Shown here: positions 5,489-64,000 of the stretch, in pieces | How positions within the stretch are numbered: position 1 is the stretch's first letter | Layout of the letters: each line of letters begins with the position of its first letter | From: Exiguobacterium sp. J17977 | Lineage (GTDB): Bacteria; Bacillota; Bacilli; Exiguobacteriales; Exiguobacteriaceae | Direction of reading: 5' to 3' | Assembly: GCF_018616375.1 (NCBI RefSeq) | Contig: NZ_JAEQBB010000004.1 | Coordinates: forward strand, 62,001 to 126,000 | Length of the DNA: 64,000 nucleotides | Made by a program: the position numbers and the translations under genes | Notes under the pieces: generated by a model | Databases searched by the model: none | The model's input: only the letters and a program-made list of their open reading frames with translations | Told to the model about the DNA's origin: nothing

Positions 5489-6829
5489 TTAGTAGAGCGT
5501 CATGTACTGATCGCGTTCCCACTCTGTTACTTGCGTACGGAACATATCCCACTCGATTTCTTTCAACTCGAGGAAGTGTTCACCGATGTGGTCACCGAGA
5601 GCATCCATCACGACTTTATCGGCACGGAGTACTTCGAGTGCGTCAAAGAGTGTAGCCGGAAGATCATCGATTCCGTTGGCAACACGCTCTGGCTTGTCCA
5701 TCACGTAGATGTTGCTGTCAATCGGCTTCGGTGCCGTCATGTCTTTCTCGATTCCGTCGAGGCCAGAAGCCAAGAGCGTCGACAAGGCGAGATACGGGTT
5801 CGCCGCTGGGTCAACCGAACGCACTTCGATACGCGTCGAGAGGCCACGGGCCGCCGGTACACGAACGAGTGGTGAACGGTTGCGCGCGCTCCATGCTACA
5901 TAGCAAGGTGCTTCGTAACCAGGCACGAGGCGCTTGTACGAGTTGACAGTCGGGTTACAGACAGCCGTGAACGCACGAGCGTGCTCGAGAATTCCTGCCG
6001 TGAAGGCGCGGGCTGTATCTGATAATTCCATGTCGCCGTTCGGGTCGTAGAAGACGTTCGTGTCACCTTTGAAGAGCGACATGTTGGCGTGCATCCCAGA
6101 ACCGTTGACACCGAAGAGTGGCTTCGGCATGAACGTCGCGTGAAGGCCATATTTCGCTGCAATCGTCTTGACGACGAGTTTGAACGTTTGGATGTTATCA
6201 GCCGTTGTGACTGCATCCGCGTATTTGAAGTCGATTTCGTGCTGACCTGGAGCGACTTCGTGGTGTGATGCTTCGATTTCGAAGCCCATGTTTTCGAGCT
6301 CGATGACGATCTCTTTACGGCAGTTCTCGCCGAGGTCGACCGGTGCCAAGTCGAAGTAACCGCCTTGGTCATTGAGTTCGAGTGTCGGTTTGCCGTTCAA
6401 GTCTTTCTTGAAGAGGAAGAACTCAGGCTCTGGTCCGACGTTGAACGCTGTGAAGCCGAGCTTTTGCATGCGCTCGAGGTTACGCTTCAAGCTACCGCGC
6501 GGGTCACCGCTGAACGGTGTGCCGTCCGGGTTATAAATATCACAAATCAAGCGAGCGACTTTACCGCTGCCGTCTGTCCACGGGAAGACAACCCATGTGT
6601 CGAGGTCTGGATAGAGGTACATGTCTGATTCCTCGATGCGTACGAAGCCTTCGATCGAAGAGCCGTCGAACATCATCTTGTTATCAAGTGCTTTGTCCAA
6701 TTGGCTGATCGGCACCTCGACGTTTTTAATCGTACCGAGGATATCCGTGAATTGAAGACGAATAAAGCGTACGTCCTCTTCTTGTGCGATCCGTTTGATG
6801 TCTTCTTTCGTGAACGTTTTTCTGGCCAT
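5489..6829 (-). CDS. glnA: glutamine synthetase type I-alpha
   Basis: 446 residues; makes glutamine from glutamate, ammonia and ATP in the cytosol. Signatures: [21 protein letters not shown] near the N-terminus, [33 protein letters not shown], and NRSPLVRVP. The arginine in GFVRIEESD corresponds to the feedback-inhibition arginine of Bacilli GS, and there is no adenylylation tyrosine segment, so it is GSI-alpha. ATG 6829 with GAGAGGGG upstream gives the B. subtilis-like length (444). It lies 46 bases behind glnR. In Bacilli, feedback-inhibited GS also signals nitrogen status to GlnR. Confidence 0.98.
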
Positions 6830-6875
6830 GGTAAAATGTCCCCTCTCACATTGTGTAATGGTTAATGTACTGGCG

Positions 6876-7274
6876 TCATCGATAAAAACGTGACAACTCA
6901 CCTTGAATGAGCGACGTCTTATTGAAACGGCCAGCTTCTTGAAGCTGTGTTTTCAATAGTTTGTGTAACTCTTGTTCAGAGATCTTCGGTGGTTCCTCGA
7001 CCGTTGTTTTTGCTGGTTCCACTTCTTTGGCGTCCGCATTGTCGAGCATATGACGAATCGCCGCCAAGTTGAACCCTTGATCGATGAAATCCTTGATCGC
7101 GAGTAGACGTTCGACATCATTAAAGGAATAGAGCCGTCGTTTCGATTCCGTCCGACTAGGCGAAATCAGACCCTGTTCTTCATAGTACCGAATCTGTCTA
7201 CCTGTCAGTTGGGTCAAATCTTGAACGATTCCAATCGGAAACAACGGGTTGGAGCGACGAAATTGATCGGCCAT
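6876..7274 (-). CDS. glnR: GlnR, MerR-family nitrogen regulator
   Basis: 132-residue MerR-type repressor. The N-terminal HTH contains [20 protein letters not shown], followed by the dimerisation helix, and the C-terminal tail ends QGELSRFYR, the region that autoinhibits GlnR until feedback-inhibited glutamine synthetase acts on it. ATG 7274 follows GGAGGGG. It is the first gene of glnRA. Two GlnR operators and a sigma-A promoter lie immediately upstream, in the same layout as B. subtilis glnRA. Confidence 0.96.
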
Positions 7275-61020: not shown

Positions 61021-61048
61021 TGAAGATGTTCATCAAATCGACCGATAG
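61021..61048 (+). promoter_or_regulatory. sigma-D-like promoter of cheV
   Basis: TGAA (61021-61024) - 16 bases - ACCGATAG (61041-61048) resembles the flagellar/chemotaxis sigma-D consensus TAAA-N15/16-GCCGATAT, 36 bases before cheV. Confidence 0.45.
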
Positions 61049-61084
61049 AAGAGATGAGAGTACGTGAACTAGGAGGGACCACCA

Positions 61085-61966
61085 GTGAGCATGGATCATA
61101 ATATTTTACTTGAGGCAGGCACGAACGAATTAGAAATCGTCATTTTCCAGTCAGGCCCGTTCATTTTCGGGATTAACGTCATGAAGGTACGTGAGATTAT
61201 CACGATGCTTCCCCTCACTCCGCTACCGGGCACGCCGGAAGCGATTATGGGCTTGATCGAGCTCCGTGGTGAGGTCATGACCGTCATCGATTTACCGATG
61301 GTCATCGGACATCCGCGTGACGCCGGAGACAACGACCGCTTGATCGTCTGTGAGTTTAACGGTGAGAAATCGGTGCTCCGCGTCGATCAAGTGACAGAGA
61401 TTAAGCGTATCTCTTGGGAACAGATCGACACGCCGTCCGATCTCGCGCGCGGTATGCAAGGAATCACGAACGGGGTCGTCAAGACCGGCGACCAAATGAT
61501 TATCCTCCTCGACTACGAGCGCATCGCCCTCGAACTGTCCCGTAAAGACATCATGGCCCGTGAATCGGTCAAACGACTCGGTGCCCGGGAGCGCTCAAAC
61601 AAACATGTCTGGATCGCGGAAGACTCGGAGATGCTGCGGACACTCATCATCGATACACTCGATGATGCCGGCTATTTCAACACGACGATCTTCAATAACG
61701 GAAAGGAAGCGCTCGATGCGTTCGAACAGAGCGACGTCCATTGTGACTTACTGATCACCGATATCGAGATGCCGCAAATGGACGGATTGCATTTGACGAA
61801 ACGACTCCGCGACATGGATCGTTTCGCCGACCTGCCAATCGTCATCTTCTCGTCACTCATCTCGGACGATTTGAAGCATAAAGGCGACGCGGTCGGGGCG
61901 AACGCCCAAATCACAAAACCAGAGATTGGCATCTTGATTGCCACACTCGACGAATTTTTAGCCTAA
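61085..61966 (+). CDS. cheV: CheV, CheW-receiver chemotaxis adaptor
   Basis: 293 residues: CheW-like domain (about 15-150: LEIVIFQSGPFIFGINVMKV; GLIELRGEVMTVIDLPMVIG) and a C-terminal receiver domain with phospho-acceptor Asp226 (LLITDIEMPQMDG) and Lys in AQITKPE. It couples receptors to CheA and adapts by phosphorylation. GTG 61085 is chosen with AGGAGG 8 bases upstream. A terminator separates it from the convergent Hpt gene. Confidence 0.94.
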   Translation: MSMDHNILLEAGTNELEIVIFQSGPFIFGINVMKVREIITMLPLTPLPGTPEAIMGLIELRGEVMTVIDLPMVIGHPRDAGDNDRLIVCEFNGEKSVLRVDQVTEIKRISWEQIDTPSDLARGMQGITNGVVKTGDQMIILLDYERIALELSRKDIMARESVKRLGARERSNKHVWIAEDSEMLRTLIIDTLDDAGYFNTTIFNNGKEALDAFEQSDVHCDLLITDIEMPQMDGLHLTKRLRDMDRFADLPIVIFSSLISDDLKHKGDAVGANAQITKPEIGILIATLDEFLA

Positions 61967-61969
61967 TCC

Positions 61970-62011
61970 AAAAAAACGGGACGTCGCATCGTAGCGAAAT
62001 CCCGTTTTTTT
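61970..62011. terminator. bidirectional terminator between cheV and hpt gene
   Basis: AAAAAACGGGA and TCCCGTTTTTT (61971-61981, 62000-62010), perfect 11-base stem, 18-base loop; the right T-run runs into the end of the convergent gene. Confidence 0.85.
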
Positions 62012-62387
62012 ATGAAAATTTATTTAATCGCGCATCCCATTCCTGGTCGAAGCGTCGCATATCGGCTTCGATGTCGTCGAGAATCGGTTCGAGGTTTTCA
62101 ATCTCGTTCGTCTCCCCAGCCATTTCGAGCTGATGGAACCGTGCAGCCGTCTCGTCGAGTCCGACCGAATAAGAGGCCCCTTTCAACAAGTGGGCGAGCT
62201 GTTCGATTTGTTCGTGGTCCCGTTCCGTCACCATGCGTCTCAATTCAGGGAATTTCGCCTCGAATTGGCGGATATATGTCTCGGCAATCTTTTTTAAGAA
62301 ATCTTTATTTCCGCTAGCGATTTGATGGAGCTCCGCCAACTTTTCTTCGTTAAACAGAGCATTATGGGGTGTTTGTGACAACTCCAT
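62010..62387 (-). CDS. stand-alone histidine phosphotransfer (Hpt) protein
   Basis: 125 residues made of one four-helix Hpt domain; phosphorylatable His66 in QLAHLLKGASYSVGLDE. It has no kinase or receiver part. Its neighbours are CheV (with a receiver) and a PP2C/SpoIIE-type phosphatase about 1.1 kb away, so a phosphorelay link is possible but not shown. ATG 62387 has AAAGGAGG (62391-62398) upstream. Confidence 0.88.
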   Translation of the reverse strand: MELSQTPHNALFNEEKLAELHQIASGNKDFLKKIAETYIRQFEAKFPELRRMVTERDHEQIEQLAHLLKGASYSVGLDETAARFHQLEMAGETNEIENLEPILDDIEADMRRFDQEWDARLNKFS

Positions 62388-62528: not shown

Positions 62529-63464
62529 ATGCTAACGATTTACCGTACCGACGCATCTGGGCGTGTCGACGAAATCGAAGATTTTGACAAAGGGAGCTGG
62601 ATCCAACTCGTCAATCCGACGAAAGATGAGGCCGATCAAGTCATCGCCGCCTCCGGCATTCCTGAAGATTTCGTCTACGACCCGCTTGATATTGAAGAAA
62701 AACCGCGATTTGAAAAAGATGATGAGGGTCTCCTCATGATTATCGACGTCCCATATGTCGAAGAAGACGACACGGGACGCACCTACAATACGATTCCACT
62801 CGGTATCATCGTCACGGGGCGACATTTCATCACCGTTTGTTCGCGTGACCTTGACGTGCTCAACTTGTTCGCCAACGGAAAAGCCCGTCTGTTCCGGACG
62901 AACTATCGGAGCCGGTTCGTCTTCCAGATTTTGCACCGAGTCAGCATGACGTATTTGCGCTTCCTTCGCCAAATCGATCGGCGCATGGACGAGCTCGAGC
63001 AAGAGTTGCAACGTTCGATGCGAAATCAGGAAATCTTTCAATTGATGAACTTACAGAAGTCGCTCGTCTACTTCATGACGTCGCTCAAAGCGAACGACAG
63101 CGTCCTCGACCGCATCGTCAAGACACCGAGTCTCGAGAAGCACGAGGAAGACGAGGAACTGCTCGAGGACGTGTTCGTCGAGCACCGCCAGGCGATGGAG
63201 ATGGCGTCGATTTATAACGATATCATCAGCATCAAGATGGACGCCTTCGGTTCGATTATCTCGAACAACGTCAACTTCGTGATGAAGTTCTTGGCTTCGA
63301 TCACGATTGTACTCAGTATCCCGACGATGATTTCCGGGATATTCGGGATGAACGTCCAAGTGCCGTGGGAAGGCCAACCAATCGGCTTCGTGTTCGCCAT
63401 CACGATGATGATCGGATTCTCAAGCCTCGCGTTTTACATTTTGTGGCGCAAACGATATTTCTAA
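62529..63464 (+). CDS. corA: CorA-family magnesium/cobalt transporter
   Basis: 311 residues: cytosolic N-terminal domain and coiled stalk, then two C-terminal membrane helices with the selectivity motif GMN (residues 273-275, GIFGMNVQVPW). Forms pentameric Mg2+ channels. ATG 62529 with AAGGTAGGAGG. A strong terminator begins at its stop. Confidence 0.94.
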   Translation: MLTIYRTDASGRVDEIEDFDKGSWIQLVNPTKDEADQVIAASGIPEDFVYDPLDIEEKPRFEKDDEGLLMIIDVPYVEEDDTGRTYNTIPLGIIVTGRHFITVCSRDLDVLNLFANGKARLFRTNYRSRFVFQILHRVSMTYLRFLRQIDRRMDELEQELQRSMRNQEIFQLMNLQKSLVYFMTSLKANDSVLDRIVKTPSLEKHEEDEELLEDVFVEHRQAMEMASIYNDIISIKMDAFGSIISNNVNFVMKFLASITIVLSIPTMISGIFGMNVQVPWEGQPIGFVFAITMMIGFSSLAFYILWRKRYF

Positions 63465-63504
63465 AAAAAGATGGTGTTGCCCGTTGGGGCGACACCATCT
63501 TTTT
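63465..63504. terminator. bidirectional terminator after corA
   Basis: AAAAAGATGGTGT and ACACCATCTTTTT (63465-63477, 63492-63504), perfect 13-base stem shared by the convergent phosphatase gene. Confidence 0.92.
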
Positions 63505-64000
63505 ACATCAATTTGACCGTGACGAGACACAAGTCATCATCAATCTCGATTTTCGGAACGAGCTGTTCGGCCACGTGACGGGCGTAGTCAAGCCCGTAAG
63601 AAGCGACGTCCTTCTCGAGCCAACGGATGCCGTCGTCGATGTCTTTGCTGTAACATTCCATCAATCCGTCCGTATACATATGCATCGTCATCCCCGGTTC
63701 GATGTCGACGACGTTTGACTCAAAATTCGGCTCCTCGAACATGCCGACCGGGACACCGGTCGTCTCAAGACGAGTCACGCCCGAGTCCGACGTCACGATG
63801 ACCGGCGGGTGACCGGCGTTGACGTACTCGATTTGCCGTTTCGTCGTGTCGATATAACAATAGACGGCCGTGAAATAGCTCTGCATGTCCTCTCCCGAGA
63901 ACAAGAATGTCATCTGACGGTTCAACTCACTCATCACATCTACCGGATATTGGACGTTGCTGACGAGACCGGGCAAAATCGAGCGGATGCCCATCGTAAT
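63503..64000 (-). CDS. PP2C/SpoIIE-type serine phosphatase, 3' part
   Basis: The visible C-terminal ~165 residues contain DVMSELNRQM, FTAVYCYIDTTKRQIEYVNAGHPPVI, TGVPVGMF, YTDGLMECYSKD and a terminal DDLCLVTVKLM, the pattern of RsbU/RsbP/SpoIIE phosphatases that control partner-switching (anti-sigma antagonist) systems. The frame is open to the window end, so the start and any sensor domain lie beyond 64000. Which Rsb-type partner it serves is not visible. Confidence 0.9.
   Translation of the reverse strand: MTMGIRSILPGLVSNVQYPVDVMSELNRQMTFLFSGEDMQSYFTAVYCYIDTTKRQIEYVNAGHPPVIVTSDSGVTRLETTGVPVGMFEEPNFESNVVDIEPGMTMHMYTDGLMECYSKDIDDGIRWLEKDVASYGLDYARHVAEQLVPKIEIDDDLCLVTVKLM

Follow-up and report, generated by a model that had tools for sequence, protein, structure and literature searches.

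We propose that Exiguobacterium may control its SigB-dependent general stress response through a phosphorelay of four steps, with a free-standing Hpt protein as the His intermediate. From the sequence comparisons described below, we put the probability of this reading at roughly 0.55. The DNA under study is a stretch of 64,000 nucleotides (C21:62001-126000, referred to here as the window) from a genome of 2.94 Mb. In the proposed relay, seven sibling sensor kinases, six of them without a regulator of their own, would autophosphorylate and pass the phosphate to one common single-domain receiver, SDRR. SDRR would hand it to His66 of Hpt, and Hpt in turn to Asp57 in the receiver of the phosphatase RsbY; phosphorylated RsbY would then dephosphorylate RsbV, which would bind RsbW, and SigB would be freed. 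All of these parts are present in the source genome, and Hpt, RsbY and the SDRR-kinase pair were found in 38/38 genomes of the family, one RsbY gene containing an in-frame stop. Gene overlap and membership of a common kinase group point to transfer from the kinases to SDRR. For the transfers from SDRR to Hpt and from Hpt to RsbY we infer the partners by closure of the inventory, since no other unassigned partner is left outside the chemotaxis and Spo0 genes, and for RsbY also from the gene neighbourhood.

Table 1. Features of the cheV-hpt-rsbY region (positions are those of the window)
Feature	Position	Strand	Remarks
Sigma-D-like -10 element ACCGATAG, 5' of cheV	61041..61048	+	CCGATA conserved; two-part match weak
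CheV (CheW + receiver), 293 aa	61085..61966	+	Pfam: CheW 108.9 bits, Response_reg 70.7 bits
Inverted repeat with A-run and T-run flanks, bidirectional terminator-like, between cheV and hpt	61970..62011	.	By direct sequence reading
Free-standing Hpt protein, 125 aa; acceptor His66 codon 62190-62192	62010..62387	-	PF01627
CorA-type transporter, between hpt and rsbY, opposite strand	62529..63464	+	PF01544; same position in 38/38 genomes
RsbY-type REC-PP2C phosphatase, C-terminal part	63503..64000	-	Gene starts beyond the window, would-be position 64621

The Hpt protein scored 36.1 bits against a curated Pfam cut-off of 24.6. Its stretch HLLKGASYSV, in which His66 occupies the HxxKG motif, is invariant in 38/38 family genomes from two genera, the source genome included, in agreement with the earlier note, which had named this residue as the phosphorylation site. 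An AlphaFold2 model based on 14 sequences (mean pLDDT 89.4) has five helices (14-23, 28-54, 58-74, 78-93 and 100-122). The top PDB match of this model in Foldseek was 7c1i (E 1.1e-3, TM 0.80/0.86, 15% identity), which is HptB of Pseudomonas aeruginosa (PMC7467158); fungal, yeast and plant Hpt proteins followed, and no match, 7c1i included, reached E 0.001. The same structure came first when a profile of 16 relatives was compared with the PDB (E 5.9e-5), and with the single sequence yeast YPD1 was at the top (7.4e-4) and 7c1i stood at E 0.11 only. All 13 matches in named genomes belonged to Exiguobacterium, the nearest being Exiguobacterium sp. s146 (95%) and E. chiriqhucha (94%). Within the source genome there were two Hpt matches at E <= 0.001, a 655-aa frame, which is CheA, and the lone Hpt. 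Thus the pairing of a CheV with a lone Hpt that had been read from the DNA is borne out by Pfam matches to both. At the same threshold, the Hpt profile matched 17 of 360 genomes outside the family, with 17 of the 18 matches lying in frames of at least 414 aa.

The cheV and hpt genes are convergent and meet at a common inverted repeat. They therefore have no common promoter, and hpt lies outside the cheV operon; in the locus alignments, the region upstream of hpt has conserved stretches of its own. The sigma-D-like promoter that had been noticed ahead of cheV is weakly supported. The hexamer CCGATA agrees with a SigD-type -10 and did not vary in the 18 loci, out of 38 and covering two genera, that were aligned. 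Taken as a whole, the two-part match is poor and its -35 half weak: the best score in the window was 9/12, a value that 31 of 200 single-base shuffles also attained, and over 19 loci between 5 and 118 of 200 shuffles did as well as the locus.

One reading, which follows the lead of the earlier note, is that Hpt exchanges phosphate with the receiver of CheV and feeds motility or adaptation. The two genes are indeed adjacent in 38/38 genomes, one sibling kinase lies beside flagellar genes (by eye), and the alpha1 helices of SDRR and CheV are the most similar of 276 receiver pairs (12/19), in a comparison whose span was chosen after the sequences had been seen and which kept one badly cropped receiver row (L025). 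We dropped this last likeness as evidence for a CheV partner, as the same helix type was present in 20/20 CheV proteins from Bacilli outside the family (the search pattern did not pick up the 7 Exiguobacteriaceae rows). None of those 20 genomes had a free-standing relative of Hpt at E <= 0.001, and since the helix type is common in Bacilli without such an Hpt, the CheV helix has not been shaped by Hpt. CheV already has a phosphate donor in CheA. Together with the convergent gene arrangement, these points make exchange between Hpt and CheV very improbable, and CheV is probably a neighbour outside the relay. The broader suggestion of an unrecognised relay for motility or stress thus survives in part: stress control through the lone Hpt and the nearby phosphatase fits the evidence from the whole genome, and the CheV and motility part does not. 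SigB has been reported to affect motility in B. cereus (PMC12848376, PMC9912610), so an effect on motility downstream of the relay is possible.

The gene order MBL(-) aldh(-) cheV(+) hpt(-) corA(+) rsbY(-) was identical, strands included, in 38/38 loci from the two genera. Beyond rsbY, none of four genes that we sought was found within the stretch in 19/19 loci of the sister genus, which places rsbY at the edge of the conserved block. The transporter gene corA, probably unrelated to the relay, stands on the other strand between hpt and rsbY in all 38 loci, so hpt and rsbY do not form one operon; in one locus of the window's genus (L096, genome G009), the interval from corA to rsbY is about 1.5 kb longer than in most of the genus. 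Since this synteny is confined to a single family, it constitutes weak evidence for a link between hpt and rsbY. Of the six block proteins, Hpt diverges most quickly within the window's genus (55-95% identity; RsbY 88-99%), as might be expected if its donor were unrelated or if it currently had no function; MBL falls below Hpt in the sister genus (41-44% and 48-53% identity). We regard an unrelated donor or lack of function as the remotest of the readings considered here, given that the active-site stretch is invariant in 38/38 genomes and that no broken copy of hpt was seen.

The PP2C-type phosphatase that had been noticed close to hpt is confirmed and turns out to be larger than the window allowed one to see: its SpoIIE/PP2C domain, on the minus strand, runs past the window end, and the protein has an N-terminal receiver. 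The full RsbY (L003:7504-8622) has 372 aa, with the receiver at 100.8 bits and the C-terminal SpoIIE domain at 130 bits, and in the PDB the best match over almost the entire protein is the two-component response regulator 3eq2 (E 3e-29). It is the sole PF07228 match in the genome. Elsewhere in the source genome, the sigB operon has the form rsbV-rsbW-sigB, with alr-like and toxin-like genes before it and a tex-like gene after it (names by eye); none of rsbR, S, T, U and X was found beside it. RsbW and SigB were above NCBIfam cut-offs, and RsbV was above the cut-off of the anti-sigma antagonist superfamily and has a DSTG motif at 54. On this evidence no other protein of its class is available to dephosphorylate RsbV, hence the name RsbY for the REC-PP2C protein. 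The partner switch leading from RsbY through RsbV and RsbW to SigB is described as established (PMC7522486). One observation from the sister genus counts against a relay from Hpt to RsbY: the rsbY gene of G020 (L107:5753-6481) has one in-frame TAG, due either to a sequencing error or to recent loss, and this genome keeps an intact hpt.

If Hpt is to feed RsbY, a donor is needed. The search for hybrid kinases that the earlier note had recommended gave none among the 24 receiver matches of the genome, the longest frame containing a receiver being that of RsbY itself (403 aa). The donor of Hpt should thus be a separate receiver or something else. Three receivers are single-domain proteins: CheY (by eye), Spo0F (Spo0F structures make up eight of its nine best PDB matches, and the ninth is a designed protein) and SDRR. 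Spo0A is also present, above the cut-off of TIGR02875; Spo0A (L016) and Spo0F (L017) are here kept in a non-sporulating genus. Five receivers, those of CheY, CheV, Spo0A, Spo0F and RsbY, have no kinase match within 3 kb, and all others have one within 2.3 kb. On the kinase side we counted 32 HATPase matches, of which five are non-kinases (RsbW, Hsp90, MutL and two type II topoisomerase subunits) and 27 are kinases; the inventory consists of PF02518 matches, and kinases not matching PF02518 would be missed. Of the 27, 18 lie within 1.9 kb of a paired receiver, of DNA-binding type or other, and another is the SDRR-coupled kinase. Those without a nearby regulator are CheA, a kinase at C21:228490 that we take to be Kin-like from its H-box, and six others. 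For one of these six a receiver lies at 3.6 kb, and a different kinase is found 29 nt from that receiver.

SDRR (C12:67015) is the third single-domain receiver, neither CheY nor Spo0F, and has the receiver residues E8 and D9 (the acidic pair), D52, T82 and K104. Its gene shares 4 nt with that of an 852-aa kinase, if the latter is read from its first possible start, and in 38/38 genomes it was found immediately upstream of the best kinase match. This kinase has HisKA and HATPase domains and, below the cut-offs, HAMP (23.8 bits against 25) and GAF (18.1 against 22.4). In a maximum-likelihood tree of 22 kinase cores, it formed one group with the six regulator-less kinases (99/97; 100% of 200 bootstrap trees), separate from all 14 paired kinases. 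The tree started from 30 HATPase loci, 23 of which matched the query, and CheA was dropped; open inner branches number 9 of 19, some terminal branches are long, and four other-type paired kinases and the five non-kinases were left out. Relatives of the SDRR-coupled kinase at E <= 1e-60 numbered at least 4-6 per genome in the window's genus and at least 7-10 in the sister genus, 25 candidates having been scored per genome, with copy numbers as lower bounds. About 100 nt downstream of one sibling kinase without a regulator there are two flagellar rod-type genes on the same strand (by eye; L240:3620-5551 and 5651-7233, C1), a possible tie of the kinase family to motility.

The conservation of SDRR is consistent with a central position in the proposed relay. 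In ten close genomes (L208-L215, L217, L218), its gene differed at 10 to 51 nucleotides and in up to 48 codons with zero amino-acid changes, and the kinase drops to 88% identity where the SDRR protein is unchanged. Identity was 99% in L216; seven more genomes of the genus had 94-97%, and the 19 sister-genus genomes 71-73%. A hub protein that has to match several kinases as well as an Hpt could be expected to show this kind of constraint. Next after the SDRR-kinase pair come genes for a general methyltransferase, which matches CheR in part, and for a phytoene-desaturase-like protein (the latter by eye; L125:7046-9647, C12).

How does this arrangement compare with RsbY proteins elsewhere? Homologues at E <= 1e-30, some of them in the phosphatase part only, were found in 115 of 398 Bacilli genomes, 38 of these being Exiguobacteriaceae (5 candidates scored per genome; copy numbers are lower bounds). 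We examined 20 neighbourhoods, hand-chosen from the 77 matching genomes outside the family, five of them near a contig end (L304, L314, L316, L318 and L319). A hybrid kinase, that is, kinase and receiver in one frame, was present in 15/20, and rsbV and sigB genes in 2/20: L311 has rsbY-rsbV-rsbW-sigB, and in L316 the rsbY homologue is near rsbV, sigB and a hybrid kinase. A motif scan of non-overlapping frames of 70-199 aa gave no free-standing Hpt in any of the 20. Pfam scans of three neighbourhoods revealed kinases of the form sensor-GAF-HisKA-HATPase-receiver, with a CheR-type protein in 3/3; L304 has a kinase without a receiver, and the one RsbY that was scanned consists of a receiver and SpoIIE. 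These neighbourhoods match the RsbK-RsbM-RsbY arrangement known from B. cereus (PMC9912610, PMC4574943, PMC9847131). The SDRR-coupled kinase was the best match in its genome for 12/16 of the RsbK-like hybrids, one of them a tie, in a test that favours this kinase, as the kinase domains were cropped by their match to it. We also considered SDRR as a direct descendant of the RsbK receiver and rejected this, SDRR being the best match for only 1/16 of the hybrid receivers.

The comparison raises the alternative that the sibling kinases phosphorylate RsbY directly, in the manner of RsbK, with SDRR as a phosphate sink or inhibitory receiver and Hpt draining or buffering phosphate. The hybrid kinases and CheR-type proteins near RsbY homologues and the likeness of the SDRR-coupled kinase to those hybrids all favour it, and so do the B. 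cereus data: RsbK is held there to phosphorylate RsbY directly, its own receiver being inhibitory and no relay step being involved, and multi-step transfer was considered and rejected, partly because a genome search gave no distinct Hpt (PMC4574943). Direct transfer leaves unexplained why Hpt is kept next but one to rsbY in 38/38 genomes. The methyltransferase inventory also speaks against it. There is one full-length CheR per genome in 38/38 genomes (split over two contigs in G014), which implies that there is no separate RsbM; in the source genome its gene lies between ndk-like and aro-like genes (by eye), in a region unlike the rsbK-rsbM locus, so the B. cereus control has not simply been retained. 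A second, partial CheR match, above cut-off over about 53-59 of 195 positions, occurred in 19/19 genomes of the window's genus and 0/19 of the sister genus; it is a general methyltransferase of 333 aa without CheR_N, beside the SDRR-kinase pair. On balance we consider direct transfer unlikely, though a serious contender. The source genome shares with RsbK-RsbM-RsbY systems the RsbY-type REC-PP2C protein, an RsbV-RsbW-SigB module without RsbRSTU, and a kinase whose HisKA, HATPase and sub-cut-off HAMP and GAF domains resemble those of the RsbK-type kinases scanned. It differs from them in having no hybrid kinase, one CheR, a separate small receiver, several sibling kinases and a free-standing Hpt.

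For the relay reading, there is precedent in characterised systems for each type of link. In P. aeruginosa, HptB phosphorylates the receiver of the phosphatase HsbR, which acts on HsbA (PMC5085249). As in the proposed relay, a free-standing Hpt is paired with a phosphatase that bears a receiver and targets an anti-sigma antagonist, and HptB is the best PDB match of our Hpt by both structure and profile. There, however, hybrid kinases are the donors, the genes form a three-gene operon and the system acts on FlgM (PMC5085249), whereas in the source genome no hybrids were found, corA intervenes and the expected output is SigB. In Sphingomonas melonis, SdrG passes phosphate through PhyT to PhyR; several Pak kinases converge on one single-domain receiver, a phosphotransferase and a regulator of a general-stress sigma factor (PMC5898713). 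In that system PhyT is membrane-bound, PhyR is the final regulator, and the sigma factor is EcfG (PMC5898713); there is no PP2C phosphatase step. One comparison counts against the relay: the specificity helices of SDRR and RsbY are alike at 6/19 positions, rank 82 of 276 pairs, and so are not specially similar.

The relay Kin-Spo0F-Spo0B-Spo0A, in which Spo0B is not an Hpt-domain protein, differs in its output, which is sporulation. It has the same sequence of kinases, single-domain receiver, His intermediate and final regulator (PMC3533761). The presence of Spo0F and Spo0A in the source genome offers Hpt another route with an open slot, and this counts against the SigB relay. Hpt might accordingly serve a remnant Spo0 relay, between Spo0F and Spo0A, or replace Spo0B; both proteins are present even though E. 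sibiricum and Exiguobacterium sp. AT1b are reported to lack many sporulation genes (PMC3533761). Spo0 genes are reported in E. sibiricum, spo0B among them (PMC2615787), and we saw no neighbourhood linking hpt to spo0 genes. A Spo0 role for Hpt is therefore improbable in our judgement.

Four routes of SigB activation are listed for the Bacillales in a source whose main text does not mention Exiguobacterium (PMC9847131), and no relay of this kind was found described in the open-access literature searched. The chances seem about even that Exiguobacterium has a fifth route to SigB: a genuine phosphorelay of the His-Asp-His-Asp type, with an expanded set of kinases converging on a near-invariant SDRR and on a lone Hpt that drives RsbY. 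On such a fifth route, the RsbKY hybrid kinase would have been replaced by separate, many-to-one parts, in a layout convergent with Pak-SdrG-PhyT-PhyR and with Spo0F-Spo0B. SigB control is a model case of many stresses being read by a single sigma factor. Exiguobacterium, a genus that includes permafrost isolates (PMC2615787), appears to possess the Hpt not found in B. cereus, with the route scaled to several kinases. If the relay is real, the connection to one and the same output module has shifted from a direct two-component link to a relay, and which kinases feed SigB in Exiguobacterium becomes open to direct testing with a few deletions.

Two further Hpt proteins were encountered in Bacilli outside the family. 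A free-standing Hpt of 127 aa in G130 (L237:7820-8203) was considered as a relative and set aside, since it has glycosyltransferase-like neighbours and looks unrelated; it also lies near a 138-aa receiver and apparently belongs to an unrelated relay. A large Bacilli genome, G323, encodes a 578-aa kinase-receiver-Hpt hybrid (L244:5379-7115) with no obvious membrane segments, which adjoins a B12-binding-like protein (both by eye).
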